A DNA stretch of 64,000 bases from Mesostigma viride. Taxonomy: Eukaryota > Streptophyta > Mesostigmatophyceae > Mesostigmatales > Mesostigmataceae. The position numbers and the translations under genes were made by a program. The notes below the pieces were generated by a model. The model worked only from the letters and a program-made list of their open reading frames with translations, did not search any database and was not told the origin of the DNA. Below, piece after piece: positions 16,664-59,671 of the stretch. Location of the stretch: NCBI GenBank assembly GCA_009746045.1, contig RPFO01001338.1:189887-253886 (forward strand). Reading direction: 5' to 3'. Position 1 is the stretch's first letter. Each line of letters begins with the position of its first letter.

Positions 16664-19600
16664 TCAGCTGGGCCCCTGGAACAAATCCGGAAGGTGCATG
16701 TTGGTCAACTTCTTGCGTTTCACCTCGCGCCGCTTCTTCTTCCCGTCCTTGCCAACCACCGCGCGGCCCGCCGTACCTCGCTTGAGCCCGCTCTGCATCA
16801 TGCTGGCGACCGTGCAGAGCGGCTTGCTCCCTGCCTTGCGCAGCTCGCGCTCCAGATCGACGGCCTCCTTGGGGAGCTCGACCGCGTGGAAGAGGTCGGA
16901 AATGTCGCGGTCGACCGCCTGGATGGGCACGCGGGGGTCCCTGGCGTAGAGGACCAGCTGCATCATCTCGCTGTTCTGGAGGATGTAGATCTTGCCTGTT
17001 TCCTTGAGCATCTGGGGGCGCCCGGGAAGCGAAGGTTATGGGAGTGATAGATTGATCACTAGCAGTCAAGTACAAATTAATCTTATCAGTCTAATAATGA
17101 TCATTATTAAAAAAAGCAAGGTGCGTCATGTGGCATAAAGGGGGCAAGGAAATACGTGTGGCACCCACCGTAGAGTCATGACTCATGAGTGCCAACGACC
17201 TCCGAGGCGTTTGCGCCACCCATCTTGACGTCCTCTGTGCCATGCACCTTGATGTCTTTGCCACCCACCCACAACCGTGTACGTGTAGACACCCAGCCAC
17301 CACCCTGTGCCTTTAGCCACCCACCCGCCTGCCCGCCCGCCCGCCCACCTTGATGTCGTCCATGAGCCCCTCGTAGCAGTCCTTGAGCATGAGGATGCCC
17401 TGCTCGCGGTGCTCCTCGTCCGCCTTAACCCCTGGCTTGAACAGCATGATGCCCTCGGGTGTCTTCGACACGAGCGCGATCAGCTCCTCGCGGCTCTGCA
17501 CCGCTTGCTCCGGCTGGGGGGAGAACGGGCCAGAGAAGCAGATAACAAGAAAGCAGGACGGGCCAGAGAAGCAGATAACAAGAAAGCAGGACGGGCCAGA
17601 GAAGCAGATAACAAGAAAGGAGGACGGGCCAGAGAAGCAGATAACAAGAAAGCAGGACGGGCCAGAGAAGCAGATAACAAGAAAGGAGGACGGGCCAGAG
17701 AAGCAGATAACAAGAAAGGAGGACGGGCCAGAGAAGCAGATAACAAGAAAGGAGGACGGGCCAGAGAAGCAGATAACAAGAAAGGAGGACGGGCCAGAGA
17801 AGCAGATAACAAGAAAGGAGGACGGGCCAGAGAAGCAGATAACAAGAAAGGAGGACGGGCCAGAGAAGCAGATAACAAGAAAGGAGGACGGGCCAGAGAA
17901 GCAGATAACAAGAAAGGAGGACGGGCCAGAGAAGCAGATAACAAGAAAGGAGGACGGGCCAGAGAAGCAGATAACAAGAAAGGAGGACGGGCCAGAGAAG
18001 CAGATAACAAGAAAGGAGGACGGGCCAGAGAAGCAGATAACAAGAAAGCAGGACGGGCCAGAGAAGCAGATAACAAGAAAGCAGGACGGGCCAGAGAAGC
18101 AGATAACAAGAAAGGAGGACGGGCCAGAGAAGCAGATAACAAGAAAGGAGGACGGGCCAGAGAAGCAGATAACAAGAAAGGAGGACGGGCCAGAGAAGCA
18201 GATAACAAGAAAGGAGGACGGGCCAGAGAAGCAGAGAAGAAGAAAGGAGGACGGGACAGAGAAGCAGATAACAAGAAAGGAGGACAGGCCAGAGAAGCAG
18301 AGAAGAAGAAAGGAGGACAGGCCAGAGAGGCAGATAACAAGAAAGAGCATGCTCCAGCAGCGCATGCATGAGCCAATGAGGAAGGGCTTGGCTGCATTAG
18401 GAAGCGAGAAATGTGAGCTCCCACTGCAGCGCTCACTCCGGCTGTGAGGGGCACAAACGACCAAGAGTAGACCTAAGGAGCCAAAGCTTGCTCCGGCCGC
18501 AGGGAGATGAAAAGAAAGAACTCTTGAAAAGGAGAGTTTGGCTGCCGTAAGAAACAACAAGTAAGAACTCGCCCTCCCTACGCACACACAGCACAATGGT
18601 GGGCGTAAGAAATCAGAGTTTGGCTCCCGCTGCCGGAGCACGACCCAATTGAATAATCTTGAATACGGCTGTGGTCAGCCAGCCCAGAAAATAGCGGTGA
18701 CAACCTGCCTAGGCCATGGCAAAACAGACGCTAACATCAAGGAGACCACTAACATATTCGAAGCAAAACAAAAGCAGTTTCCCCTGGCTGGGTGGCCATG
18801 GCACAAGCCTCAAGGGCCACTTCAGATTACACATATTTTATGGTGTATCAATAGTTCCAGAGCCCCGCAAGGCAACCGCCTCCTGGGTGGGTGTATGGAC
18901 TTACACCAACAACGACAGTTTGCGACCATGAACCCGGCAGAGTGTAGCCCCACCAAGGGTCAACCGGTGGCCAAGCGACCCAAGACTTTACCAACACAGA
19001 CCAAGGCGGAAAGAAATACTCCTGGGAACAATGACAGAGGAAGAATGGGCTTGAAAGGGCGAATACCCTGAGGTGGTAGAATGGGCTCGATAGGGCGCCT
19101 AGCAGAGGTAGAATGGGCTTAATAGGGCGCATAGCAGAGGTAGAATGGGCTCAATAGGGCGCATAGCAGAGGTAAAATGGGCTCTATAGGGCGCATAGCA
19201 GAGGTAGAATGGGCTCAATAGGGCGCATAGCAGAGGTAAAATGGGCTCAATAGGGTGCATAGCAGAGGTGGAATGGGCTTAACAGGGAGCAAAAACAGCG
19301 GTGGTGGAATGGGCTCGATGGGGCGCATACTCATGATCCGTTCATGGCAAATGCATGGCAACGTTGAGAATCCGCGCCCTAGACATGGCGTGTCACTCCC
19401 CACCAAACCGCTGCTCTTGCACTAGCAGCAACACCGGCCCGTGCCGGTCCATGGAAATCTGATACTAGATTAGAGAGAAACACATGTGTGCAGATAAGGG
19501 TGGTGCAACGCTAGTTGGTGAATAAGGGCAGTGGGACACGGACTAGTGCTACGCCCATTACACCAACCCTGCCCTGCCGATTGTTGAGAACCTTGTGCCT

Positions 19601-26734: not shown

Positions 26735-27920
26735 CACCCATCAAATGACCTTGGATTAGGCTGAAACTTGGAACGTGGGTTTTGGGTTAGCTAATCAAGA
26801 GGTATTCCAAGTTTCAGCCAAATCCAACATCATTTGATGGGTGGCCTGCAACCAACCCACTAGCACTCCTTACACGTGCACGCGTGCACGTAGCTACCCA
26901 CCCCAGCCTGCAATTGGCTACCCTTGACCCACCCATCCTTTGGAGCTGAAACTTGGTAGAACCCTTGGGTACCTGTCCCAAAACCCACCTTCCAAGTTTC
27001 AGCCAAATCCAACATCATTTGATGGGTGGCCTGCAACCAACCCACTAGCACTCCTTACACGTGCACGCGTGCACGTAGCTACCCACCCCAGCCTGCAATT
27101 GGCTACCCTTGACCCACCCATCCAGTGGAGCTGAAACTTGGTAGAACCCTTGGGTACCTATCCCAAAACCCACCTTCCAAGTTTCAGCCAAATCCAACAT
27201 CATTTGATGGGTGGCCTGCAACCAACCCACTAGCACTCCTTACACGTGCACGCGTGCACGTAGCTACCCACCCCAGCCTGCAATTGGCTACCCTTGACCC
27301 ACCCATCCTTTGGAGCTGAAACTTGGTAGAACCCTTGGGTACCTATCCCAAACTCCACCTTCCAAGTTTCAGCCAAATCCAACATCATTTGATGGGTGGC
27401 CTGCAACCAACCCACTAGCACTCCTTACACGTGCACGCGTGCACGTAGCTACCCACCCCAGCCTGCAATTGGCTACCCTTGACCCACCCATCCAGTGGAG
27501 CTGAAACTTGGTAGAACCCTTGGGTACCTATCCCAAAACCCACCTTCCAAGTTTCAGCCAAATCCAGCATCATTTGATGGGTGGCCTGCAACCAACCCAC
27601 TAGCACTCCTTACACGTGCACGCGTGCACGTAGCTACCCACCCCAGCCTGCAATTGGCTACCCTTGACCCACCCATCCAGTGGAGCTGAAACTTGGTAGA
27701 ACCCTTGGGTACCTATCCCAAAACCCACCTTCCAAGTTTCAGCCAAATCCAGCATCATTTGATGGGTGGCCTGCAACCAACCCACTAGCACTCCTTACAC
27801 GTGCACGCGTGCACGTAGCTACCCACCCCAGCCTGCAATTGGCTACCCTTGACCCACCCATCCAGTGGAGCTGAAACTTGGTAGAACCCTTGGGTACCTA
27901 TCCCAAAACCCACCTTCCAC
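26735..27920. repeat. 185-bp satellite, six copies, with an inverted leading edge
   Basis: Units starting TTCCAAGTTTCAGCCAAATC recur every 185 bp from about 26804 to 27920 with very few differences (for example CCTTTGG versus CCAGTGG). Each unit contains TTTGATGGGTGGCCTGCAAC, a CACGTGCACGCGTGCACGT palindrome and an internal inverted match (CCAAGTTTCAGC / GCTGAAACTTGG). The leading edge (26735-26783) is the reverse complement of the first part of the unit, so the array begins with a hairpin. Identical 63-64 codon ORFs on both strands come from the repeat. Confidence 0.95.
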
Positions 27921-29199: not shown

Positions 29200-32100
29200 G
29201 CGAAACAAAGGGCAGATTCGGATTCAGCACGAAAAGGTACGTCTAGCCATCTCTTCTGAGGGGCGGAACAGCTAGCCGTCACTTGAAACGTGTGGGTAGA
29301 AGGAGCAGGCCTTACGAAATTCGTAAGTCCGCCCCTCGCCTCACTGTTTCTCGTGACGGCTACCCCATTATGGCATTCGGTCAGTGAGCCACGGCTCGGA
29401 TTCGAAAACCCATCGGCAGGATGGACTAGGCCTGGGCCCCTCCACCTGGGTGGGCGAGTAGTCTCCTTGGAGCGTGACCTCCTGTACCCTCGGTTACCCT
29501 TTCACAGGCGCAATGACTATGGAATAGTTATCGCCACACCAGGTGATCCGCTATCACCAAGACACCTCCATAACGACTTTTCTCAATACCTGCTGCCATT
29601 ACCCAAACGTGGGTGTAATGCAGCCTTTCCAATCGCTTTGGTTCTGCTCACAGCACACTGCACAGTAGGTCTCTCTTTTAATGACTATCTCACGCCCACG
29701 CCCTGTGCATGTTGTGCCGTGTCTTTCACCTTTCGCAGGTCCAATCTCACCACGCCATGGGGACCTACACGGAACCTACCCGGCCTGGTCCGCTGGAGCC
29801 CTGCAATGACATGAGTCAACTAACACTGGTATCGTGGAATGTCAGGGGGCTGAACACATACGGGTCACACACACCAGGGCAGGGACAGCGAATACCTCGC
29901 ACACGAGAATTAGCAAATGCATTACACAACTTGCTCGAGCGCTACGTGGGCCCCTCGCATGAAATTTGGATAGGACTGCAGGAACATAAAATCCAAGAAG
30001 CTGCCACACGCACCGCCCTTAGAGCTGCTAGAGCACTTGCACCTAGGACAGTTCACCGTTGGGCATGGGCACGCGGTACACAAGGGGGCACTGCCCTCAT
30101 TCAATACCGTAAACCTCCCAACCCTACGCTGACATGCCAGGACTGGGCTATAGCTACCGACACAGCGGAGGCTAGATGGCAGGGCCGTTGGACGCGGCAG
30201 TCCATTACATGGGCAGGAAATAAGGGATACATTATTAGTGTATATGCCCCAACCGAGCCAACGGATCAAGCCTCATTCTACCCTTCCCTCTTCAAAATGG
30301 CCGCTGACCTTATCTCACAGGGGTTCGAAATTGCGTTGATGGGCGATTTCAATATAGACCTGGATGAACACCCCCCTATACGCACAGCGGCCTTCAGTAA
30401 ACAGATCATGGACCTGAACTTACAGGATGTCATCCGCTCACGAGACCACGGGCCCACTTGGCTGGCCACACGTTTAAATGTACGCACTACTCGTCGTCTT
30501 GATAAAATCTACATCACACCCGCATGGGCGGACCTAGTTTGCTACGCATCGGTCGACCGTTCTGTTAATTTTTCTGATCACTACCCACTCATCGTTACCC
30601 TTGCCCATCACACCAACTCCGCCCGGGGCCCCGGCATTCCCCGCTTAAACAAACACCTACTCGCGGACGATAAGTACTACCTTGAGATCATGACACGCTG
30701 GCAGTCGTGGAGAGCCAGCAAGGGTAGCTACACAGACTGCTGCAGCTGGATGCAGGAGGGCCTAGCTAACATTCTAGAATTTTCCCAACTGTATTCACAA
30801 AATATCCGCCGCCAGAAAGGACAGGACTATCGGTACTACCAACGCATAGTGAATAAACTCCAAGCGAAGCCTACCCTGTATCAATCGGAACTAACAAAAC
30901 TTCAAAGAGCTCAGACCGAACTTGACAAACTACGTTTCGAGCGTCACACATTAGCACTAGACTCAGAAAATCTGTGGTGGCACCAGGTAGGAGAGAGAAT
31001 GACCAAAGAGTTCTTTGCTCTGATTCCTACCCCTAAAGCTCACTCCTCTATCACGGAAATCCAAGACGAACACGGCAGCCACCGAGACATCACCTCCATA
31101 CTACAGAGTGGTCACCGTTACTACTCAGCTCTCTTTCTAAACGAACCCCATCCTGACTCATCTGCAGCCATGCAAAAAATCCTACATGCCATTCCCCGTC
31201 GCCTTACACCAGCTCAACAGCAGGAACTCGATCAAATCCCCTCCATGGAAGAGGCCACAACAGCTATGGAACACATCAAAACCGGTAGCGCCCCCGGGGT
31301 CGACGGTCTGCCTATTGAATTCTGGAAAACGTTCTGGTCCCTTCTACACATAGATTTCTACGAATGTATTCTTGAAATTTGGCGGCACGGTAAGGTGAGC
31401 GGCAGATGGGCTGAATCTGCGCTTATCTTACTGTACAAAAAAGGAGACAAGACTCTATGGAAAAACTACCGCCCAATCCGTCTCCTTACGGTAGCGTACA
31501 AAATCATCAGTAAAATAATCCAACGACGCTTATACACCGTCCTAGACTTCCTCATTGGTCCGGAGCAAGTGGGCTTTAGGGCCAATCTCCACATCAACGA
31601 CAGCATTACCCTCATCATGGACATTGTGGAAAAAGCCTGGCGCGACGATATAGAGGGTTTCATATTGTTTTGGGATTTTGAAAAAGCCTTTGACCGTATG
31701 TGCTGGGAATACCTAGAACACATTCTAACCGCACTAGGATTTGGCCCACAACTCATGACCGTCATTATGGGTATGATCAAATCCCTGGCTTGGTATTTAC
31801 TAATAGACGGACACAAGTCAGCGACCGGCGCTAGCTCACGATCGCTACCACAAGGAGATTGCATGTCCCCTATTCTATTTCTCTTGGCCCACGCAGGACT
31901 CTACTGGCTACACCAGAACGATCCTCGCATTCGGGGCTTCCCGACAGGTAACGGTAAAGGTATATTCCAAACGGCTTATGTGGATGACACAACAAATGTT
32001 TGTATCTCTCTGCCTGAAGTGCATGCTGTCATGGATAATATCACTACCTATTCTGTTGCCACACAACAACGATGCAATGTGCTCAAGTCCACGGGACTGC

Positions 32101-34368
32101 ATATCGGCAAAACCAACACCCTACGCTACGCCCTCCCCAACCTGGCTGTGACCTGGGTCAAGCCGGGGGATCACCACCTTTTGCACAATTGTCCCATCGG
32201 CTGCACACCCGAGGGACGCTTGGCTGAACAACGTTCTTTCATGTATGATGAAACCAACCACGTGGGCAAGCTTGCAGGCGTTCTCCTTACCGCAGGGCGC
32301 TGGGGGGCCGTCCACCGCATGAGCCTACGAGGGCGAACCCTGATCGTCAACCAACTGTTGTTCTCTAAGGTCTTGTATTATTGCCAAGCACACCCACCCA
32401 ATGATGCCACCACACAGCTCATCCAACGCCTTGGCAGCAATTTTGTCTGGAAACAGAAAGGCTTAATCTCCCACACGGTCCACGGATGGATCAACAGAGA
32501 GATGTCCTTCATGTCATGGGTGCACGGGGGCCTCGGGCTCCACAACATACAATGGCGTCTGTGGTCGCTGTATGCTAAACAAGTGATATCCGTTTTTATG
32601 GGCGTTAACACACACCCTGGCTGCATGCTTGCACGTGAAACGCTAGCCTCTCTTTCCACCCATGCTAGTGGCACCTCGTGGCAACTGGGGGCGGGCATAC
32701 TGGGCAGCACCCTTATTTCGTACAAAGGACTCCCATGGTATTGGCAGCGCATATGGACAGGTTACAATAAGCTCAAGCCGGGTCGCCTAGTCTTTCCTAC
32801 TACTAGAGAGGAGGTGGCACGGCAGCCACTCTTTTTTAATGACTTAATCACAGACGCTACTAACAAGCCCCTGGGCACTCTCCACGGACACAACCCGTAT
32901 GATGGCTTTCTGCGCGCGTCACCGCCGATTGTCAGGGTGCTGGACCTCTACCTGGGGCACGGCGCTGCGTACCGACGGCTCAGCTACGACGAGGTCAGCA
33001 CTTGGGTCTCCCACATGCCCTCCCTGCAAGCGTGGCAAACTCTTATAAGTGCGATACCAGCGGCGTGGCATGCATTGATGACTGCCCCACGCAAGCCAAT
33101 TATAACCGGCGACTGGGTTAGCTTCTACGCCGACGGAGTCACGCCTGCGTGCAAGGGTTTAGTCGTGACGGTTCTGCCACCTGAGGGGCTCCAACTACAA
33201 CTGCTGGACGCTATTTCTGGCCACAATGGGTGTCTGTATCAACTATCCACCTTATATGCGTACACGCCAGCTTCCCAGTGTCACCGCATACGCGTAGTCC
33301 CATGGTCTGTGCCAAGATCTTGCATGATCCAGCCGGACCCATTATCCCCGGTTGAGAGCATTACATGGCTACACGTGGGCAACACACGGCTCGATCTACT
33401 ACATCTGGACCCGGTTGAATTTGGATGGGTCTTAACCAAGGGGGACATCAGAACCAGCAAATGTATCTTTGAGTACACCGCAGATTGGGGTTATGATATC
33501 TTGTTGCATATGTACCATCAGCCCCACCCGGGCCGAGCCCGCTGGGGAATACATTGGCCGGGCTACACTTGGGTTAAGATGATTACCCTGGCGGTAGACC
33601 ACCCTCTCGTGGACCGCAGGGCCACTGATGTACAACACCTTTTGATGCATAGGGCGATAGGGGTCTGCGCCATGCTCCACGAGCGTTTTGGTCATGATGC
33701 ATCATGCCTGTGCACGCACCCTAGTGAAACCATTGAGCACAGGTTTCTTTACTGTAATCTCCCTGGGGTTTGGACGTGGCTCATTAACATCTGGGCCGCA
33801 TGGACGGCATCGCCACCCACTCTCCCAATCAGCGTGCGTACCATCATTTTCGGTATTGCTGGCACACCAGGGTCCGAGCTTTCAGTTTCCCAAGCAGAAT
33901 GGATATGGCTACGCACTACTATGCTATACGCGATCTGGACCATACGCAACGAGACAGTCTTTAAGGTCCGCGAGGAGTATACCCGCGGCGGCGTAGTCCG
34001 GCGCTTTATATACCTATGGAATGCGGCTATGCGCCGCTACTGGCTGTTAGCTCAGGAACAACACAGGGTGTGGGACCCAGGGCCCAATAACGACAAGCCC
34101 AGCCCGCTCCAGCTTTTTCATGATCTACTGGGCCGTAATCAGGTATTCACCAGTATGCCTCATGGCGACATCACTCAGGTCCAATGGCTTCCCTGGTCTA
34201 ATAACGCGCCCTATTAGCCTTTCACCTGTCACCGCCACACGTGTGTGTGCCCACCTTCATTAGGATTCGCTGATACTCATTTCCCCTCTCACCTCTTTGG
34301 TCCATAATTGGCTAATAAAATATTCTGATCTATCTGAATTGGCTAATAAAATATACCCATTTCCCCGA
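29200..34368 (+). mobile_element. Full-length L1-like LINE with 21-bp target duplication
   Basis: The same 21 bases, starting AATCTACTGCGTAG, flank the element at 29179-29199 and 34369-34389, which defines a complete 5.2-kb insertion. The 5' leader is about 610 bp. One long frame follows. The 3' UTR contains two copies of TTGGCTAATAAAATAT, each with AATAAA (34314-34319, 34345-34350). There is no poly(A) tail; the repeated segment takes its place. The intact frame and perfect target duplication point to a recent insertion. It is not related in sequence to the AATT-tailed LINE family elsewhere in the window. Confidence 0.93.
29811..34217 (+). CDS. LINE polyprotein: AP endonuclease - reverse transcriptase - zinc finger
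   Basis: The frame is open from 29709, but the ATG at 29811 (MSQLTLVSWNVRGL) lies just before the endonuclease, giving about 1468 residues. The N-terminal quarter is an APE-type endonuclease with all landmark motifs: SWNVRGL, GLQEHK, VYAPTEP, MGDFNIDLD, RRLDKIY and SDHYPL. The central reverse transcriptase has GSAPGVDGLP, NYRPIRLL, QVGFRAN, FWDFEKAFDRM, LPQGDCMSPILF and the catalytic AYVDDTTN. Near the C-terminus a C/H cluster (CLCTHPSETIEHRFLYC) matches the zinc-binding region of plant-type LINE reverse transcriptases. The protein would nick the target and copy its own RNA there. No inactivating change is visible. No separate ORF1 was found; a 174-codon frame in the leader (29290-29814) has no RNA-binding motif. 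Confidence 0.93.
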   Translation: MSQLTLVSWNVRGLNTYGSHTPGQGQRIPRTRELANALHNLLERYVGPSHEIWIGLQEHKIQEAATRTALRAARALAPRTVHRWAWARGTQGGTALIQYRKPPNPTLTCQDWAIATDTAEARWQGRWTRQSITWAGNKGYIISVYAPTEPTDQASFYPSLFKMAADLISQGFEIALMGDFNIDLDEHPPIRTAAFSKQIMDLNLQDVIRSRDHGPTWLATRLNVRTTRRLDKIYITPAWADLVCYASVDRSVNFSDHYPLIVTLAHHTNSARGPGIPRLNKHLLADDKYYLEIMTRWQSWRASKGSYTDCCSWMQEGLANILEFSQLYSQNIRRQKGQDYRYYQRIVNKLQAKPTLYQSELTKLQRAQTELDKLRFERHTLALDSENLWWHQVGERMTKEFFALIPTPKAHSSITEIQDEHGSHRDITSILQSGHRYYSALFLNEPHPDSSAAMQKILHAIPRRLTPAQQQELDQIPSMEEATTAMEHIKTGSAPGVDGLPIEFWKTFWSLLHIDFYECILEIWRHGKVSGRWAESALILLYKKGDKTLWKNYRPIRLLTVAYKIISKIIQRRLYTVLDFLIGPEQVGFRANLHINDSITLIMDIVEKAWRDDIEGFILFWDFEKAFDRMCWEYLEHILTALGFGPQLMTVIMGMIKSLAWYLLIDGHKSATGASSRSLPQGDCMSPILFLLAHAGLYWLHQNDPRIRGFPTGNGKGIFQTAYVDDTTNVCISLPEVHAVMDNITTYSVATQQRCNVLKSTGLHIGKTNTLRYALPNLAVTWVKPGDHHLLHNCPIGCTPEGRLAEQRSFMYDETNHVGKLAGVLLTAGRWGAVHRMSLRGRTLIVNQLLFSKVLYYCQAHPPNDATTQLIQRLGSNFVWKQKGLISHTVHGWINREMSFMSWVHGGLGLHNIQWRLWSLYAKQVISVFMGVNTHPGCMLARETLASLSTHASGTSWQLGAGILGSTLISYKGLPWYWQRIWTGYNKLKPGRLVFPTTREEVARQPLFFNDLITDATNKPLGTLHGHNPYDGFLRASPPIVRVLDLYLGHGAAYRRLSYDEVSTWVSHMPSLQAWQTLISAIPAAWHALMTAPRKPIITGDWVSFYADGVTPACKGLVVTVLPPEGLQLQLLDAISGHNGCLYQLSTLYAYTPASQCHRIRVVPWSVPRSCMIQPDPLSPVESITWLHVGNTRLDLLHLDPVEFGWVLTKGDIRTSKCIFEYTADWGYDILLHMYHQPHPGRARWGIHWPGYTWVKMITLAVDHPLVDRRATDVQHLLMHRAIGVCAMLHERFGHDASCLCTHPSETIEHRFLYCNLPGVWTWLINIWAAWTASPPTLPISVRTIIFGIAGTPGSELSVSQAEWIWLRTTMLYAIWTIRNETVFKVREEYTRGGVVRRFIYLWNAAMRRYWLLAQEQHRVWDPGPNNDKPSPLQLFHDLLGRNQVFTSMPHGDITQVQWLPWSNNAPY

Positions 34369-34389: not shown

Positions 34390-35222
34390 CGCCTCTTCAG
34401 TCTTACTGCAGGGAATCTGGTGCCGGTGACAGTACGGCGCAGCGGTCGGATCCGGACTGGACGTTGTAGTAATGTGTCCTACGCGCCGCGATTCGACTGG
34501 ATGGGCTGCGCGCGATACGCTGGATCTAGGCAACCACGTTTTCTGGAAGACGTGCTACAAACCTACCGAGAATCATCGGGGTGCTGGCCAGCACCGGGTG
34601 CCAATTCCCTGAGAATTATTTTTGGGAGAGAGTGCCATTGTGGCAGCCATAGAAGCTACTATCGGACCACTGGCGCGGGAGTAAACTCAACTCTACTCAA
34701 CCATACAAGTTCGATTTCATAAAAAATCTTCCCTGCCCGCTTTCAAAAATCAGCCATAGGCACAACTAGGCATTTCAGGCTATTTTTGGCATACCTGGGT
34801 CACCTTAACTGTTATATGGAAATAAACTAACACCCATTTCACCGGAAAAAAAATCAGCCATGTGGAGCTCAATTCTCCATTTCCCAGTGCGCATGTAATT
34901 CTTTTGCCTTTCAGTGTTTTATTGCACGCGGGTGTACTGTATCCCGTTTGTAATTCTCGAATAATTATTTGGGCATATCGCGGATAAGCTTGTGGCCAGA
35001 TATTGTAAATATTTACGGGACCAGGCTTTTGGGCTCGTTTGGTGGGCTTTTCACTGGTAATTAACATACCCGTTCTTGCGGTTTTCGCGGGAAATTGAGT
35101 TGCATTCAAGTCCAATTGCTTTCAGGCCGTCTGCCAACACGAGCCATTGGCCAGCCCGACAAGGCAGACCACGCCGGCTTAAATTCTAAGCCTAGCCGGC
35201 CGGCCTAGCCGGGCTTACACAA
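34390..35222. other. Upstream region of the VWA-domain gene
   Basis: No gene is seen. An inverted CCAAT box (CCATTGG) lies about 75 bp upstream of the VWA start codon, and a weak AT-rich TATA-like stretch (TTAAATT) lies about 40 bp upstream. The promoter assignment is tentative. Confidence 0.35.
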
Positions 35223-38200
35223 ATGGCGCCCTCTGTCGTGCAAAGCTTCTCGCTGGGTTCACTGGGCTCGCTTCTGGGCATCACCCCTGCCAAGGACATC
35301 CCCGGGTCAACGGAGCACCCCTCGCACCTGACCGTCGTGCTGGATAGGTCCGGCAGCATGGGTTCCTGGGTCGAGCGCTCCCTGATCGCCGTCCACGGCG
35401 CGCTGCTTCAGCTCGGTCGCAACCCCGAAGAACAGCTCACCCTGATCACTTTCGACGACGCCTCGAAGCGCGTGACGGTGGACGGCGGCGACCCGACGAT
35501 TGACCACCTGGCGACCCGCCTGAAGGACATCCGATGCCGCGGCAGCACCAACCTAGCTGGCACATTCTCCATCCTTCTGGACGTGATCCGCAGCCACGGC
35601 GCGCACGAGGGCCACGTCATCCTCGTCCTGTCTGACGGCGAGGTGTCGGACGGCCATGCCACCGCGCTCGCGGCCCAGGTCGCGGTGGACGCCCTGGCAG
35701 GGCACCGCGCCCCTATCACGGGCTGCCTCCTCCGCCTCATGACGAGCGAGATGGCCAGGCCAGACACACGCGCGCTTGCCTGCGTGGGCTCGTTGTTCAA
35801 CACCAGCAAGGCGGCTGTCATTGACGTCGACGTCGCACTCCGGGGGAGCGAAGAGGTCAGTTTGTTGCTGCTCACGCAGGCCATCGTGGAGGGGCTTGCG
35901 TCCGCACGCGGGGGGCCGACACGCATGGTCAAGCTGGCCGCGCCGGGGGTGGCGTTCCGACGATTTCCTGGCGCGGAGCCCATCCGGCGGCTCCACCTGC
36001 CATGTGGCGCGACCACGTACGTTCTCGTGGAGCGTGCCTCTGGTAGCAGCGCCGCCGATGCGGGGGACGGAGCCCACAATGAGGGTGGGGCATCCCATAA
36101 CCGGAATGTAGGGGGGGGGGCGGCCAGTGCCTCTGGTGGGGATGCGGGCGGGCAGCACCTGCCCCCAATGACAGCTGGCGCGGATATCCCACTTTTGAGC
36201 GGCGATACCAACACCCGCGTCGAGGGCGGGGATGGGGCAGCCACCCTGCCACCACCGCCCGCGCTGGCCTGGGTGTCCCTGGGTGACCACCGCGTGCCGG
36301 TCACGGACATGGGCGTGCTGACCCACGAAGAGAGCGTGGCGGCTTACCTCGAGTTTGTGGAGCAGCAGATCAAGATGTGGGCGCTCGTAGGGGGGGAGGG
36401 CCGCGCAGCGGCGACGGGGCGCGCACTCACTTGGTTCGATCAGCTCGACGCAATCCTGGTGGCCAGCCGGGCCAAGGCGCTGCAGGGAGGAGAAGGAGGA
36501 GGGACGGATGCGTTTGGGGGAATAACAGAGGCATCTCTGCAGGAGGATGGGAGTGGCATGCCACCAGGAGGTGCAGGGAGGGACGTGGTCTCTGTCATGG
36601 CGCGGGCGCGGGCGCTCGCAAAGACCGCCAAGGCCCGGTCGGCGTCGGTCATATCCCGTGTGCGTCAGCTGCGCAACGTGGGGCGGCTGGACCACCTGAA
36701 CGCGCAGCAGCAGGCCGACTGGCTGCGCGGCGCGCAGGACACGCGGTCGGGTCGCCAGCTGGCGAAGCGGGCGCTCGCGAGGGCGGGGGGACAGGACGAC
36801 GGTGGCGGCGTGGCCGACATGGTTGGCGCGGCGCGGGACGCGGTGGCCATTCTCGCAGAGGCGATCGCGCCATCAGGAGCAGAGGGCGGGGCAGACAGTA
36901 GCAATACCTCATCTCAAGCATCATCTGTGGGAGGGAGGGATGGGACGCCGGGGGGTGGGGCATCGGGTTTAGGAGGGGGTGGGGTTGGGCCTGGTGGGAA
37001 GGGGGCGATTCCCTTGGACGAGGACAAGTACGACGACGGCTCGGCCTCTTTTTATAGTCGGTCCAGCTTCCGAGAGTGCCTACACGCAGCTGCCGAGCTG
37101 GCGCCCGAGGCGGGCCAAATGGGGCTGAACGACATCGTGACATGCGTCGGCGGCGTGGGCGTGGCCATCCGCGCGCGCGTGGGGGACTATGTCGACCCCT
37201 GGACGTTCCGCGTCGACATGCTCTTTGCGGGCGTGAGCCTCGCCGAGTCCGACCTGTGGCTCGTGACGGCAACAGCGCAAGAGGATGCCCGTCAGGGGGG
37301 AGGGAATGCGGGCGTGCCGGATGGGCTGGAATGCCCCGGTCGTCCCGGGTGTTTGATCACGGGGGTGATCCCGTTGAGGGTCGTCGACGCCGAGGCCTAT
37401 GATCTGTACTCAGGCCCCGGCGTGCGGCCGCTCATGGAGATGCACGCAAGCACGTGCATGCGCCGCATGCTGGCGCCCGTGCCCGGCGACGTCATCGCGA
37501 TGACCACAGCGGGTGCGCTGCATCTGCTGCAGTCGCTCGGGGCACGCGGGGCGGCGCTGCCGGAGGTGGAGGCGCGTCTCCTGGCCGCGTTCCTGGGCAA
37601 CCTGTGCCGGCTGATCGGGCCCGTGTACCGGATTTACCCCTACGAGGAATTGTTCCGTGCGCTAGCGGCCACCACAGACACGCGCACGGTGCTGACCGCC
37701 GCGCGAGACGTGTCGGGCATCCTCAAGCCGGTCGCCGCCCTCCTGCGACTCTACGACAAGGACAAACCTGCGGCAACCCCCGTGGAGGCACCCGCCTCAT
37801 CCGGGGCCCCCAAGGAGGACCCGGAGCCCCTAGTCCCCTGCAGCTTCCACCAGGGACACCTGGCGCACGTCCTGCGGTCGCTCTTCCACCTGGACTGCTA
37901 CATGTCGGCGCGGCGCGCATTCCGCGACGCCCCTGACAAGGCCACAGCGAGGGAGGCGGCGGTCCAGTCGCTACTGGCGATCGACACAAGGGACACCCGC
38001 AAGGCCACCCCACTGGCGCCGCTGTTCGAGCCTGAGCTGGTCCCGCCGCCGGCCCACTACGACCAGCTCCCCGATGGCCCTCTCTCGGCGCTCCCTTGGC
38101 CCGCTTGGGTGCCGGACCACACCCTGGATGCGCTCCTGGGGCTGGAGGCGGTGTTGAACAGGCGGGCCGCGCCGGCGGACCCGACGGCCGTCTTCGGGTG

Positions 38201-39074
38201 TCCTCGCGAGGTCCTCCGCGCCGTGGGGGTCGTGCAGGGGATACTGTGTGGTGAGGCGGGGGACCGGGTGGACGCTGACACGGGCAAGTGCCGGCTGCCA
38301 GATATCACGAGCGAGGAGGACGCCGTGGCGTACCTGCGGTCCATCGTGAGGGCGCGGTATCAGGTGGACTATGTCAAGCGCGCGGCGAGCAAACGGGCGG
38401 CGGAGGAGAGGGAGGCGGTCGCGCAGGCGGTCGCCCGGTTGATGCGTGTGGGCTCCCTGGAGGAGTTCATGGAAGGGTTTGGCGTGGCCAGGCAAGGGGG
38501 CCCAGCGCAGGTTGTCGTGGCAAAGGCAGGCGAGAGGCCGCCGGTGTACACGATGGTGGACGGCATGCCTAGTGTCAGGATCTCCAACCGGCAGCACCCT
38601 GGGTTCTCCCAGGTCATGGCGGCGCTCACGGACGTGGACGCGGCCGTCAGCACGCCGCTTCCGTTCCAATCGGAGAAGATTGGGTTTGTGCTCGCGGGGC
38701 GTGACGTGCGCGAGGGGGATGCCGGGGAGCCCCTGTGGGAGGGCGGGAACATCTTCCGTGGCGACTGGGCACCATTCCAGCGCGTGCTCGAGCAACTGCC
38801 CAACGGGGCGCACGTGTGGGCGTGGCTGGAACACATGCGGTCACTGCACAAGGGCCACCGGTACCGCGGGTGGGGCACCGATGTCTCGCTGCCAAACCGC
38901 CACGGCCACAGCAACGATTTCGTGAGCTTCTTCGGGCTGGGCTTTGCGACGATGGCAGCCCTGCGGGCGGCGGTCCCTCTGGAGCAGTATGATGACTATG
39001 TGCAGAGGCATTGCGTGGAGAAGGGCTGCTGCCTGGAGCAAGCCAGGAAGGAGAAGCCGGCCCCAAAAACTTAG
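35223..39074 (+). CDS. Large von Willebrand factor A-domain protein, intronless
   Basis: The gene encodes 1283 residues. Residues of about 35-215 form a VWA domain with a complete metal-ion-dependent adhesion site: DRSGSMGS (D41, S43, S45), the threonine in CRGSTNLAGT (T109) and LSDGEVSDG (D138). Glycine-rich linkers with low-complexity GGG runs separate it from an alpha-helical middle part (for example RVRQLRNVGRLDHLNAQQQ) and a long C-terminal region (about 600-1283) I do not recognise, with conserved-looking aromatic stretches (PVYRIYPYEELFRAL, HRYRGWGTDVSLPNRHGHSN). There is no signal peptide or membrane segment, so it is probably intracellular. The codons are strongly GC- and CpG-rich, as are the TFIIE-beta exons, which suggests a genuine host-style gene. 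VWA domains usually mediate metal-dependent protein contacts; the partner is unknown. The 3.9-kb frame without introns is unusual beside a multi-exon neighbour. Confidence 0.88.
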   Translation: MAPSVVQSFSLGSLGSLLGITPAKDIPGSTEHPSHLTVVLDRSGSMGSWVERSLIAVHGALLQLGRNPEEQLTLITFDDASKRVTVDGGDPTIDHLATRLKDIRCRGSTNLAGTFSILLDVIRSHGAHEGHVILVLSDGEVSDGHATALAAQVAVDALAGHRAPITGCLLRLMTSEMARPDTRALACVGSLFNTSKAAVIDVDVALRGSEEVSLLLLTQAIVEGLASARGGPTRMVKLAAPGVAFRRFPGAEPIRRLHLPCGATTYVLVERASGSSAADAGDGAHNEGGASHNRNVGGGAASASGGDAGGQHLPPMTAGADIPLLSGDTNTRVEGGDGAATLPPPPALAWVSLGDHRVPVTDMGVLTHEESVAAYLEFVEQQIKMWALVGGEGRAAATGRALTWFDQLDAILVASRAKALQGGEGGGTDAFGGITEASLQEDGSGMPPGGAGRDVVSVMARARALAKTAKARSASVISRVRQLRNVGRLDHLNAQQQADWLRGAQDTRSGRQLAKRALARAGGQDDGGGVADMVGAARDAVAILAEAIAPSGAEGGADSSNTSSQASSVGGRDGTPGGGASGLGGGGVGPGGKGAIPLDEDKYDDGSASFYSRSSFRECLHAAAELAPEAGQMGLNDIVTCVGGVGVAIRARVGDYVDPWTFRVDMLFAGVSLAESDLWLVTATAQEDARQGGGNAGVPDGLECPGRPGCLITGVIPLRVVDAEAYDLYSGPGVRPLMEMHASTCMRRMLAPVPGDVIAMTTAGALHLLQSLGARGAALPEVEARLLAAFLGNLCRLIGPVYRIYPYEELFRALAATTDTRTVLTAARDVSGILKPVAALLRLYDKDKPAATPVEAPASSGAPKEDPEPLVPCSFHQGHLAHVLRSLFHLDCYMSARRAFRDAPDKATAREAAVQSLLAIDTRDTRKATPLAPLFEPELVPPPAHYDQLPDGPLSALPWPAWVPDHTLDALLGLEAVLNRRAAPADPTAVFGCPREVLRAVGVVQGILCGEAGDRVDADTGKCRLPDITSEEDAVAYLRSIVRARYQVDYVKRAASKRAAEEREAVAQAVARLMRVGSLEEFMEGFGVARQGGPAQVVVAKAGERPPVYTMVDGMPSVRISNRQHPGFSQVMAALTDVDAAVSTPLPFQSEKIGFVLAGRDVREGDAGEPLWEGGNIFRGDWAPFQRVLEQLPNGAHVWAWLEHMRSLHKGHRYRGWGTDVSLPNRHGHSNDFVSFFGLGFATMAALRAAVPLEQYDDYVQRHCVEKGCCLEQARKEKPAPKT

Positions 39075-44787: not shown

Positions 44788-45187
44788 TATAGATGTACGT
44801 CGGAGACGTTGGGGACTCAGTGTGAGAATGATGGCTGCAGCAACGCCAGGGATCGGGCGTTCCTTGTCATTATTCACTCCATATGTGGGCACACATTATA
44901 TGTCGTGGACACATCACTCACACGAGATCCCTAGGACAACTGGACTACGCTCACTTGTCCGCCACGTGTCCAGGTTCTAGAGGTTTCTAGACCTGGAGCA
45001 ACGTTACTACGCACAACGTCCACTAGACTAGTTACTAGCTACGTAACTTGCGTACACGTGTGTGCGTCGCGCCACAACCGGCGCTCGGCACCGTTATTCT
45101 GTCTCCGCCAGAATAACTCCGGTCACATTGTATGTTCCCCTGTGTGGCTCCGGCCACAAGTCAGCCTCGAGGTATCTCAGCTAACTC
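44788..45187. repeat. Inverted copy of the foldback element's core
   Basis: This stretch is the reverse complement of 948-1364 with few differences and one indel-rich zone. Only the core is present here, without the long inverted-repeat arms, so the core is an independent repeat or the arms were lost. Confidence 0.9.
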
Positions 45188-55060: not shown

Positions 55061-55875
55061 GTGCCCCCAGGGGTGTGTAATGTAGCTGCTAGTGACAGCA
55101 GTGAGGGGCAGCCCCATGCTCTAGTGAAAGAGCCTATTGGACACGATGGGGCAAGCTTGGTTACCACAGAGAGTATGCCAGCTGTAGCTGCAGTGGTTAC
55201 TCGCCAACGTGCCCGCCATGGCGGTGCTGCGCCTGAGGTAGGACCTGGTGATGTGGACCCAGGTGGATCTCAGAAGCATTCTGACCGTGCAGGACTGGCA
55301 CAGGATGGTCAGGATGAGGATAGGGCTGGAGACAGTCTGACAGGCACGACCCTGGTGCCTCCTGTACATAAGGGATCTGTACATACCTTGAGTGCTAATA
55401 ATGACAATAAAAGGTTTTCTCTCTTGTATGACATTGCCTCAAGGTTGCATACCATGTTTGGCCATGCAGCTCAGTCTTTGCAAGTTGCTAGACGGCTGGG
55501 AGGAAGTGAGTTGTACTCCATCTGCCAACAGGTTGCTCAAGCTTGCAAGTGCAGGCTAGTTGCTAGAAAGCCCAAGCAGTCTCATGCCAGGACTCCTATT
55601 TTGCAGCCAGGCCATGTGCAGGTAGATATTCAGAGAATCAGGGGTTTGAAGCTGCTGGTGGCAGTGGACAGATATACCAAGTACAAGACCCTACTAGAGA
55701 TCCTGCCTGACATGGAGAAGCCTACATTAATTGCTGCTCTGAAGTTGACAAGGAGCAGGTACCCTGGGTTGGAGTTGTTGCAGTGTGACATTCAGTTTGA
55801 GTGCTGTGAGAACCTGCCAGAGTTTCCAGAGTTGCTGATTACACCCAGGGAGAGCCACGGCCATGGCAAGGGGTG
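55061..55875 (+). pseudogene. Integrase region of the Copia-like element (first part)
   Basis: This frame begins after the gag stop and contains VAAVVTRQRAR, a degenerate zinc-binding region (LHTMFGHAAQ ... CQQVAQACKC) and the catalytic core with the first two acidic residues (HVQVDIQRIRGLKLLVAVDR, then LELLQCDIQFE). The third catalytic residue lies in another frame (VVERAIQEIKTVLL, starting near 55873), so a single-base shift near 55860-55872 separates the D,D part from the E part. No protease signature was seen upstream of the integrase, where Copia elements normally have it. Confidence 0.7.
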
Positions 55876-56783
55876 GTGGAGAGAGCCATCCAAGAGATCA
55901 AGACTGTGCTGCTGGTGGAGAGGATTCCAAGGACGTCATCTGCCATTGTGACATCTGCATGGCTACGTTCTGTGGAGGACAGGCTGAACCTGAGGACTCC
56001 CATGTTCTTTGGTGACATTGCCATCAATCCTCTTATGCTGCATACCAGGATGCTGCCAGCTGATGCTGAGCAGGCATGGAAGGAGAAGCTAGAGGCCAAG
56101 TTCCTCAAGCTGAGGCAGAAAGACAAGGGCTGGAGTGTCCTAGAACCTAACGTTGGACAACAGGTTGTTGTGTGGAAGGAACCAAGCTTTCCAGGGAAAC
56201 GTGGCAGCTGGCATGATGGGGTGGTGACCCGAGTAGAAGCCGCTGGCCATAAGTGCTGGGTGGCCATTGATGGCTCCCAAGCAGTGCACCGTCTGTCCTG
56301 GTCAAAGATCCGTCCCCGGGGAGGTAATCAAGGAGACCTCTTCCAGGTGCCCGCTGGTGTACAAGGCGGGGGTGACGTGGAGCTTCCTGATCAGGGTGCT
56401 ACAGCTGTATCGAGCCCTCAGGGTGACCCTGGCCCGGCCCCTGGGGTACCTTCACATACGGTGGTTGGGCAAGCAGGCGGACAGGCTGCACCTCCGGAAC
56501 GGCCCGACACCAGGCCTAGGGGTGTGCGTCTATCAGATATTGTACAGGCTTTGCAAAGAGCCAAGAAGGAGCCTAAGGTGTCCAAGCTTGTCCAGTTGGA
56601 TGAACCTGAGGTAGCTGCCATGGAGATAGATACCAATGCACAGGTTTCTGTCATGGGACCTCAGCATACAGGAGAACTGCTGGTCGGAGAACCAAGTTGC
56701 CCCTGGGTGTCTGATTTCAGTGGTACATGTAGGACGCATCTAAGGGTGTTGGCCGGAGAGGTTACTGCCCCTGTCATGGGTGT
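55873..56783 (+). pseudogene. Integrase C-terminus and protease-like segment
   Basis: It opens with the integrase glutamate motif (MVERAIQEIKTVLLVERIP) and continues through a helical region and a chromatin-binding-like stretch (WHDGVVTRVEAAGHKCWVAI). Near the end a retropepsin-like segment appears: AAMEIDTNAQVSVMG, reminiscent of the (I/L)DTGAxxSV active site but with N for G. The matching flap/ILG part (DVTFLVLEDYDGPVILGQNF) lies beyond the palindromic insertion. The coding frame on the two sides of the insertion is the same once the insert and one GGTGT are discounted. Confidence 0.65.
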
Positions 56784-57817
56784 AGTTAGGTTAATATTGT
56801 GCGGAAACCTTTTTGCCACTTGGGCTACTCAGGTTCCGCACAATATTACCGGCGATAACCACTCGCCGGACACTCAAGTTCACGACGTCGTGAACTTGAG
56901 TGTCCGGCGAGTGGTTATCGCCGGTAATATTGTGCGGAACCTGAGTAGCCCAAGTGGCAAAAAGGTTTCCGCACAATATTAACCTAACTAAAACCTAGCC
57001 TCTTGGGGCGAGGACGAATCACTAGGCTCGGAACACCCGTATGCATGAATATGATCGAATATAAGCATCTCGTTGGTGCAAATATCGATATGAATATGAT
57101 CGAATATGAGCATCTCCTTGGTGCGCATATGATTAGAGCCGGGTGCCAAATCGGAACGAATTATTCCCCCAAATAATCCGCTTCCGAGTGGATAATCGAA
57201 CCTGCGCCCCGCAAGGATCCAGGTCTTAGTTAGGTTAATATTGTGCGGAAACCTTTTTGCCACTTCGTCAACGTCGTGAACTTGAGTGTCCGGCGAGTGG
57301 TTATCGCCGGTAATATTGTGCGGAACCTGAGTAGCCCAAGTGGCAAAAAGGTTTCCGCACAATATTAACCTAACTAAGACCTGGATTCTTGCGGGGCGCA
57401 GGTTCGAATCCACTCGGAAGCGGATTATTTGGGGGAATAATTCGTTCCGATTTGGCACCCGGCTCTAATCATATGCGCACCAAGGAGATGCTCATATTCG
57501 ATCATATTCATATCGATATTTGCACCAACGAGATGCTTATATTCGATCATATTCATGCATACGGGTGTTCCGAGCCTAGTGATTCGTCCTCGCCCCAAGA
57601 GGCTAGGTTTTAGTTAGGTTAATATTGTGCGGAAACCTTTTTGCCACTTGGGCTACTCAGGTTCCGCACAATATTACCGGCGATAACCACTCGCCGGACA
57701 CTCAAGTTCACGACGTCGTGAACTTGAGTGTCCGGCGAGTGGTTATCGCCGGTAATATTGTGCGGAACCTGAGTAGCCCAAGTGGCAAAAAGGTTTCCGC
57801 ACAATATTAACCTAACT
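56784..57817. mobile_element. Hierarchical palindromic element, AGTTAGGTTAA family, type 2
   Basis: The element is 1,034 bp. It consists of three palindromic modules, P1 56784-56989 (206 bp, two perfect 103-nt arms around GACGTC), P2 57228-57375 (148 bp, its left arm shortened) and P3 57612-57817 (206 bp). The modules are separated by spacers 56990-57227 and 57376-57611, which are inverted copies of each other. The whole is thus itself a palindrome centred in P2. All modules start AGTTAGGTTAATATTGTGCG and end with the reverse complement. A 5-bp target duplication GGTGT flanks it (56779-56783, 57818-57822). A tRNA B-box-like GGTTCGAATCC lies at 57401-57411, 25 nt after P2. There is no coding capacity; the 61-codon ORFs on both strands are mirror images. 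Confidence 0.92.
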
Positions 57818-59671
57818 GGTGTGGATGTGACCTTCCTTGTCCTAGAGGACTATGATGGCCCTGTGATTTTGGGTCAGAATTTTCTGGGCAATCCTGGGAT
57901 TTCTATCAGAGCTACAGCTCTGAGAAGAGATGGCTGGGGGATGATTCCCCTAGAAAATTTCAGGACAACATTTCCAGTCAGGTGCAGGGCCAAGCCGGTC
58001 AAGGGTGTAAAATGGGATGAAGGGGAGGTGCCCCCAGCGGCCAGTTTGGTGATTCCAGCTGTGTTGCACCCCAGCAGTATTGGCATAACTCACAGGAGCC
58101 TTGCTGCACACTCTCCTTTGACATATGACCAGCTGGTCCAAGAGATGAGCTCGCCTACTTTGTTTGAGGCTTGGAAGCTCGCCTTCTCCAAGGCATTGGA
58201 GGAGTGGTTGCAGTTTGAGTGTGCTGCACCAACAGACAGACGTCCCCCAGCATCAAGGAAGCTTGCTTTAATATTTGTGCTGAAAAGGAAGGTTGTGGAT
58301 GAGGTATCAGTGCCCCATGTCAGACCTGTCCTGAATGAGTATCACGGCACGGGGAGTCTGCCAGGAGAGGAGCTATACACGCCAGGGATGCTACACGACA
58401 CATGGAGAATTTTGCTATGTCTCTACGTGGGGTTGCTGAACAGGGGAGCAGCTATGTCATCAGTGCTGCTGGACTTCAAGAGGGCATTTTTAAAATCTGA
58501 TCCAGAAGTGGCCAGGAGGGTGTGGAAGCAGGATGAGCCTTACTGTGTTGAGGTGCCTGCCATCTGGAAGCTGGAGCTGCATCAACAATTCCTGGTTATT
58601 CTGAAGGGCCTGGAAGGACTCAGGTCGAGCCCAATCATCTGGAGACTCACGCTGCAGGAAGCTCTGATCAGTGAGTGTGGCTTGAGAGTGTCTTCGGTTG
58701 ATCCCTGTTTGCTGCTGGCCCAATGGGAGGGTCTGCCAGTGTATGCTAGTTTGCATGGAGATGATCTGCATTTGCTAGCCCCCACGACCTGGCTGAAGAA
58801 GTTTATTCCTGTCATCAGTGGCAAGTTTTCACTGGGCAAGGAGCTGTGGCAGGAACCCAACAAGCCTGTAGTGTTCTGTGGAATGCAGGCTACCCTGTTC
58901 AGAAGGGACGGGGAGTGGAGTATCAGGCTTCAGGCTGGAGGAGATTATAAACAGACCATTGTGAAGGCCTTGCCAGAGAAGATCACCCAGGCTGCAGGTC
59001 CTGAGTTGAGAGGCATGTGGGCCTGGTTTGCCAGCATCTGTGGTCCGTCTTTGATGGTCCATAGCAGAATGCCTGATGAGGTGCTTGAGGATGAGAAGCC
59101 TCGAGTCATAGCCCGGTTGGTGGAGAGTACCCCTGATCTGATTTTGTCTGGGATTGACTTTGCCCAGCCTATCACCTTGGAGATCTTTGTTGACAGTTCC
59201 ATGGATGCTCGCCAGGTTACCAAGGTCAGGGGGAGATCTGCTGCTCTGTTTGCTTTTTATCAGAGCAGGGCAAGTTTGTTCAGCTGGTACAGCAGACTGC
59301 AGAAGAGGGTCTGTATCAGTTCAGATGTGGCAGAATGCAGGGCCATATGCGAGGGGATTCAGTCCAGCCTGTACATAAAGGAGTTAATGCTGGAGCTGGC
59401 TTCAGTTACCCCTTGGACCTTGCAGATGGAGACGTTGTTGCTAACAGACAGCATGGGTATGGTCCAGTTTGTTCACAAGCAGCTGGCCAGAAGCCGGGAC
59501 CTGGATTATTTGTTGCTGAAGGAGTTGGCCAGTTTGGTTGACTTAAAGCATATCCCTGGCGAGGAGAACCCTGCTGATGCATTGACAAAGCTGCCACACA
59601 AGGCCCCAGCCCAGTACAATGTACTGAGGAAGCTCATGAATGCTGACTGTCAAGTCGGTCTATCTGTCTAA
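57818..59671 (+). pseudogene. Copia-type reverse transcriptase and RNase H (pol, 3' part)
   Basis: After the insertion the frame reads VDVTFLVLEDYDGPVILGQN, then a Copia-type reverse transcriptase (SSVLLDFKRAFLKSDPEV, LKGLEGLRSSPIIWRLTLQE, VSSVDPCLLLAQWEG and the active site SLHGDDLHLL in place of YVDD). RNase H follows (ITLEIFVDSSMDARQVTK, LFSWYSRLQKRVCISSDVAE, LLTDSMGM, HIPGEENPADALTKLP). This part is uninterrupted for over 600 codons but has lost its upstream continuity. The first Asp of the YVDD box is retained as GDD, with H for V. Confidence 0.85.

Follow-up and report, generated by a model that had tools for sequence, protein, structure and literature searches.

An insert of 1,034 bp at positions 56784–57817 of the window (the whole stretch of 64,000 nucleotides of Mesostigma viride DNA analysed here) raises the question of what kind of element is built as a palindrome made of smaller palindromes, and how such a structure is moved and maintained. 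The sequence-only reading described the insert as P1-S-P2-S'-P3, and its coordinates proved exact. P1 (56784–56989), which carries the terminal inverted repeat end AGTTAGG, is a perfect 206-bp palindrome with two 103-nt half-arms, as had been claimed for P1 and P3 alike, and P3 (57612–57817) is identical to it. The spacer S (56990–57227, plus strand) has 238 bp and its inverted copy S' (57376–57611, minus strand) has 236 bp; S' is the reverse complement of S, as proposed, apart from one substitution and a 2-base indel. The outer arms of the insert, 56784–57193 and 57408–57817, are 410 nt each and 100% complementary. P2 (57228–57375) is a P module in which the greater part of the left arm is gone as far as approximately the palindrome centre, with the left arm retained to position 38, the right arm present from about the centre and some 5 filler bases; its length of 148 bp agrees with the loss of 58 bp relative to P1 noted earlier. 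The terminal 20-mer of the element occurs 6 times in the window with up to 3 mismatches allowed, compared to 0.00 occurrences predicted by shuffles.

The insert arrived as a unit. A direct duplication of GGTGT was found at 56779–56783 and 57818–57822, as the sequence-only reading had it, and the internal P modules have no 5-bp direct repeats around them. The upstream part of the interrupted open reading frame (ORF) occupies 55810–56783 in frame 1 and the downstream part 57818–59671 in frame 2, both on the plus strand. The two halves share a single frame once the insert and one duplication, 1,039 bp in total, are subtracted (55810 mod 3 = 1, 57773 mod 3 = 2, 1,034 + 5 = 1,039 and 1,039 mod 3 = 1), which supports entry of the element into an open frame in one piece and the earlier claim of arrival as a unit. 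A zinc knuckle lies upstream in the host ORF, and integrase-like, protease-like, reverse-transcriptase-like and RNase-H-like stretches can be recognised by eye along the ORF in the order typical of Copia, the last two in the downstream part. The upstream part has no confident Pfam match, the downstream part has no Pfam match, and Pfam and PDB searches gave no confirmation of the reverse transcriptase. The earlier assignment of the host gene to Copia is plausible from motifs and domain order, with no database match to confirm it.

The terminal 20-mer was searched on both strands of the 440-Mb genome, as the sequence-only reading had proposed together with an inventory of copies by modules and 5-bp duplications. 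There are 403 and 396 exact matches on the two strands, 799 altogether, compared to 0 and 0 for the reversed control. We studied 25 regions spanning the 100 of 799 matches listed, a non-random sample in contig order, and eight of these regions were also examined as wider stretches. The canonical copy consists of half-arm, half-arm', S, half-arm, half-arm', S', half-arm and half-arm', that is, P-S-P-S'-P with a length of 1,090 bp, and the spacer measures 235–240 bp in young copies. In copy L031 all 1,090 bp form a perfect palindrome, with 545-bp arms and zero spacer, and L021 and L030 have a single unpaired position each, each differing from L031 by one base. Among the matches listed, three P modules are found in 12 of the 19 independent copies with two ends (the window copy, L013, L014, L017, L020, L021, L025, L026, L029, L030, L031 and L035). 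Other arrangements are P-P in L011, a single P with the duplication TCGAC in L012, two P in L015 and L019, each of which has one P interrupted by 8 kb of retrotransposon-like sequence, P-S-P with the duplication CATGG in L027b, an older, rearranged copy in L038, and three P with half of P3 and part of S' missing in L027a. The copy L022 is the L021 insertion within an inverted duplication and was counted once: the two face opposite ways on the same contig (C2) at a distance of about 186 kb, their right flanks are identical over 484 bases, and they represent an inverted segmental duplication.

The element ends, AGTTAGG...CCTAACT, form terminal inverted repeats, and exact 5-bp duplications flank all 19 independent copies for which both ends were located among the matches listed (the twelve three-P copies together with L011, L012, L015, L019, L027a, L027b and L038, the last with AAATG on both sides). 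An initial table of 24 rows contained an exact 5-bp match in 17, of which two belong to L011 and one to L022, which repeats L021. The seven rows with no match comprise an internal boundary (L011a) and six copies with at least one end missing (L016, L018, L023, L024, L028a and L028b). Four duplications are additional to the table, namely those of L031, L035, the window copy and L038. No exact 5-bp match was found at L042a, L042b and L037, which are older and have a right end one base short. In L016, whose left half is gone, ATTAC occurs both close to the left break and in the right flank.

The description of the insert as having two levels of inversion captured the nesting correctly and undercounts its depth, since each 103-nt half-arm itself folds into two hairpins, a third level of inversion. 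A 15-bp stem pairs half-arm positions 9–23 with 51–65, and a 7-bp hairpin pairs positions 66–72 with 80–86; in the first half-arm of the window copy, on the plus strand, these correspond to 56792–56848 (loop of 27 nt) and 56849–56869 (loop of 7 nt). The folding of the half-arm has z = −7.6, and S as single-stranded DNA also folds better than its shuffles, with z = −3.2. In an alignment of young and old half-arms the two groups are set apart by one compensatory change from G-C to A-T in the second hairpin, and 3 of 14 older rows (L042:2669, L038:2247 and L037:2463) have a change that breaks a pair there. We rejected selection on this hairpin, as one compensatory change is too little and 3 of the 14 older rows break a pair. 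In a separate observation, the motif GGTTCGAATCC (window 57401–57411) recurs in young and old S modules alike, in 36 of 37, the sole exception being the S of the window copy; we take it to resemble a pol III B box. ARAGORN detected no tRNA in the window, and Rfam searches of S gave only hairpin-type matches far under the gathering scores.

Consistent with the earlier statement that the insert encodes nothing, no protein was recognised in it, and the best Pfam matches of three of its ORFs are below the curated cut-offs. The longest stop-to-stop ORF has 158 amino acids in the window copy and 95 in the canonical L031. No transposase or autonomous partner was seen in the regions of the 100 of 799 matches listed. 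The 8-kb interiors of L015 and L019 were considered as a possible partner and rejected, as they carry retrotransposon-like ORFs nested inside a P and no transposase; these two copies host retrotransposon-like insertions, whereas the window copy itself sits in a related-looking retrotransposon ORF. An ORF adjoining the element at L019:8969–9361 (minus strand) looks like a hAT transposase by eye and has no Pfam match.

The modules of one copy are far more alike than the modules of different copies. Perfect palindromes account for 30 of 35 complete 206-bp P modules (27 of 32 when L022 is excluded), and their central hexamers are of four kinds, GAC|GTC, ACC|GGT, GTC|GAC and AAC|GTT, each itself palindromic. 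Half-changed tips, one-sided intermediates, are seen in P1 of L025, P3 of L014 and the second P of L011. Half-arm position 44 is uniform in 15 of 18 elements (87 half-arms) and mixed in 3 of 18, compared to a mean of 2.4 and a maximum of 8 uniform elements in shuffles. Among 12 pairs of S and S', the mean difference is 0.67 within an element versus 5.59 between elements, a homogeneity matched in 0 of 10,000 permutations, also when the divergent L013 and L014 pairs are dropped; both the shuffles and the permutations leave inheritance from an already homogeneous parent element out of the null model. Variant cells in the same 12 pairs are mirrored in 33 cases versus one-sided in 8. Three mirrored variants (in L020, L029 and L035) are each confined to a single element among the 12, and in P1 of L013 the two arms show the same 17-bp deletion in mirror image. 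The arms do drift, as indicated by seven one-sided events in S and S'. The pattern suggests mutation followed by copying between arms, and inheritance from homogeneous parents could explain part of it.

Copies remain symmetrical, yet they often break at palindrome centres. We assembled 18 P regions chosen for irregularity, scored by the intact run inward from each side, with older copies left outside the count. In 12 of the 18 an endpoint of the lesion lies 7 bp or less from the centre, where uniformly placed endpoints would be expected in about 15% per lesion (probability 7 × 10^-7). The P2 of the window is one of the 12; its loss is private to the window copy and of this common type. The remaining 6 of 18 lesions are non-central, including P1 of L015, which was scored in this way because its region stopped short of the right arm. 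Centre breaks are also visible by eye in the older copies L036, L038, L041, L043 and L042/L037. The proposal that the loss in P2 is what allows the structure to be replicated is not supported, as copies with an intact P2 exist, the perfect palindrome L031 among them, and the loss resembles an ordinary central lesion. Cunningham et al. in 2003 reportedly described a centre-break revision of palindromes, and in both cases deletion begins at the centre and takes away one of the arms; that process concerns transgenes and cell lines, whereas ours is inferred from natural transposon copies. Asymmetric deletions at inverted (palindromic) junctions have been described elsewhere, and the pattern of P lesions fits that description (PMC8701086).

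These results lead us to interpret the insert as a young member of a non-autonomous family of DNA transposons of the foldback or MITE type that is moved in trans, exchanges sequence between its arms and breaks at its hairpin tips, a joint reading to which we assign a probability of roughly 0.78. A transposase made elsewhere in the genome would recognise the AGTTAGG ends and move the element. Judging by the pattern of variants, modules within one element may be rewritten from each other by copying guided by a hairpin or cruciform, or by gene conversion, and new mutations would then either be mirrored in the other arm or be left as recent one-sided changes. Hairpin tips would also be cut or skipped, and the loss in P2 of the window, like the other deletions that end at palindrome centres, could arise in this way. 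It is also conceivable, though improbable, that the element renews its own symmetry, with one arm, folded as a hairpin, templating the other whenever the element spreads. Every new copy would then begin as a perfect palindrome with its mutations mirrored, and a cellular transposon would be copying itself by a fold-back step resembling a rolling hairpin and not by simple cut-and-paste.

Two origins of the three-P layout deserve consideration. The element could be a composite: two palindromic MITEs flanking a captured spacer would have formed a P-S-P precursor, one P would have broken at its tip, and copying of the hairpin end would have resulted in an inverted dimer with a shared middle P. The existence of a P-S-P copy and of a single P, each with its own duplication (L027b with CATGG and L012 with TCGAC), is in line with this scenario, as are the frequent breaks at P tips and the internal P modules that lack flanking 5-bp direct repeats; the same two short forms are, however, equally explicable as deletion products of the three-P form, and we would place the composite origin somewhat short of an even chance. 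Alternatively, an autonomous element with long terminal P-S-half-P repeats may have lost its transposase gene, so that the repeats met. There are precedents in the proposal for Galileo that internal sequence was recruited into the repeats, giving TIR1-F1-F1-TIR2 (PMC3573991), and in some foldback families with coding relatives that bear composite repeats, such as Tm1, as described in PMC3169594. No coding relative was seen in the regions studied, however, the interiors of L015 and L019 being retrotransposon-like, and descent by deletion is a possibility that we entertain with some reserve.

Two other accounts fare considerably worse. Independent P MITEs could have landed side by side around an older S repeat, and single P and adjacent P-P arrangements do exist (L012 and L011); however, different sites show modules in the same order and at the same spacing, each site has a single outer duplication, and the inner P modules are not bordered by 5-bp direct repeats, making serial insertion very unlikely. 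Palindromes are in principle prone to chimeric fold-back reads, which could produce an inverted layout in an assembly. The three-P layout in 12 of 19 independent two-ended copies, with distinct flanks, duplications and private lesions, speaks against this, and because so many other copies have duplications of their own an assembly artefact is extremely unlikely. A two-module reading of the locus was rejected together with the artefact, as the layout recurs at different sites.

The non-autonomous transposon reading can be set against known systems, some of which the sequence-only reading overlooked in stating that it knew of no named family with such a layout. The M1/M2 repeats of Pithovirus are MITE-like palindromic units arranged as (M1-M2)1-8-M1, and rice MITE multimers are known as well, as cited in the same source (PMC10664404). 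According to that source, the Pithovirus repeats likewise consist of two alternating units with the same palindromic unit at the start and the end, are MITE-like, are more alike within a region than between regions, and have no established mover, hairpin nucleases being suspected (PMC10664404). In contrast, they have putative TA duplications, with one example described as having none, where the element here has 5 bp; M2 is itself palindromic, whereas S has only weak palindromic character and occurs in alternating orientation; and there are 1–8 units in a viral genome compared to usually three P here (PMC10664404). The 5-bp duplications in place of TA make our element Pithovirus-like and not a member. 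Snap-back MITEs and MITE multimers (those of rice as cited in PMC10664404) share with it a short palindromic non-coding structure and the joint movement of several units; in our element the three units form a fixed palindrome with inverted spacers and a third hairpin level.

The foldback transposons FB, Galileo (PMC3573991), Tetris (PMC4079207) and Tm1 (PMC3169594) are described as having very long modular inverted repeats with little or no unique middle, variants in module number, non-coding copies, and a suggested exchange or homogenisation of repeats. For the modules inside them, tandem repeats or other motifs have been reported, whereas those of our element are palindromes (PMC3573991, PMC4079207, PMC3169594), and their target duplications are 8–10 bp in Tetris (PMC4079207) and 9 bp in Tm1 (PMC3169594) compared to 5 bp here. 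As in the foldback class, modular inverted repeats make up almost the whole element, with 545-bp arms in L031 and one unpaired position in L021 and L030; as in MITEs, there are terminal inverted repeats, a fixed 5-bp duplication and no coding capacity. By these descriptions, the nearest layout is that of the Pithovirus repeats and the nearest class the foldback transposons (PMC10664404, PMC3573991, PMC4079207, PMC3169594). The element works like both and is assigned to no named family; it is set apart by its 5-bp duplication, its fixed three-P palindrome with inverted spacers and its third hairpin level. Viral contigs gave 0 matches. Two contigs of a single Thiomicrorhabdus MAG gave a match that covers only the terminal ~21 bases with no palindrome after them, and this was taken as chance. 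Transib transposons have 5-bp duplications and a terminal sequence beginning with CAC, and membership was rejected, as the element ends begin with AGTTAGG. A literature search of partial coverage yielded no description of this family, weak evidence that none has been published.

Long perfect palindromes tend to be unstable, and whether hairpin-guided copying aids the amplification of MITEs is a long-standing question. With a perfect palindrome of 1,090 bp among its members and many copies dated by divergence, this natural family offers a test bed for the handling of palindromes, in which their copying, upkeep of symmetry and breakage can be measured in a real genome, and it could show whether hairpin-guided copying helps a transposon to spread.

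Several further observations concern older copies and the surroundings of the insert. In aligned modules of the older copies L036, L038 and L041 there are nine 4-base insertions of the form XY-rc(XY)-XY (GA-TC-GA, TG-CA-TG, TT-AA-TT, CA-TG-CA, TC-GA-TC and GG-CC-GG), which resemble the footprints that a different DNA transposon, one making 2-bp duplications, would leave on excision. Seven rows of 4-base insertions in the same table do not have this form; five of these seven fall in a stretch of S in L036 that aligns poorly or belong to an alternative alignment. Elsewhere in the window, two long ORFs follow each other at 29685–34217 and 35196–39074, the first LINE-like with endonuclease and reverse-transcriptase domains and the second with 1,292 codons and a match to a von Willebrand A domain. 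Tandem arrays occupy 17520–18345 (33 bp × 25) and 26805–27919 (185 bp × 6), and the segments 1054–1282 and 44855–45083 form an inverted pair of 229 nt, 99% complementary and 43.6 kb apart.
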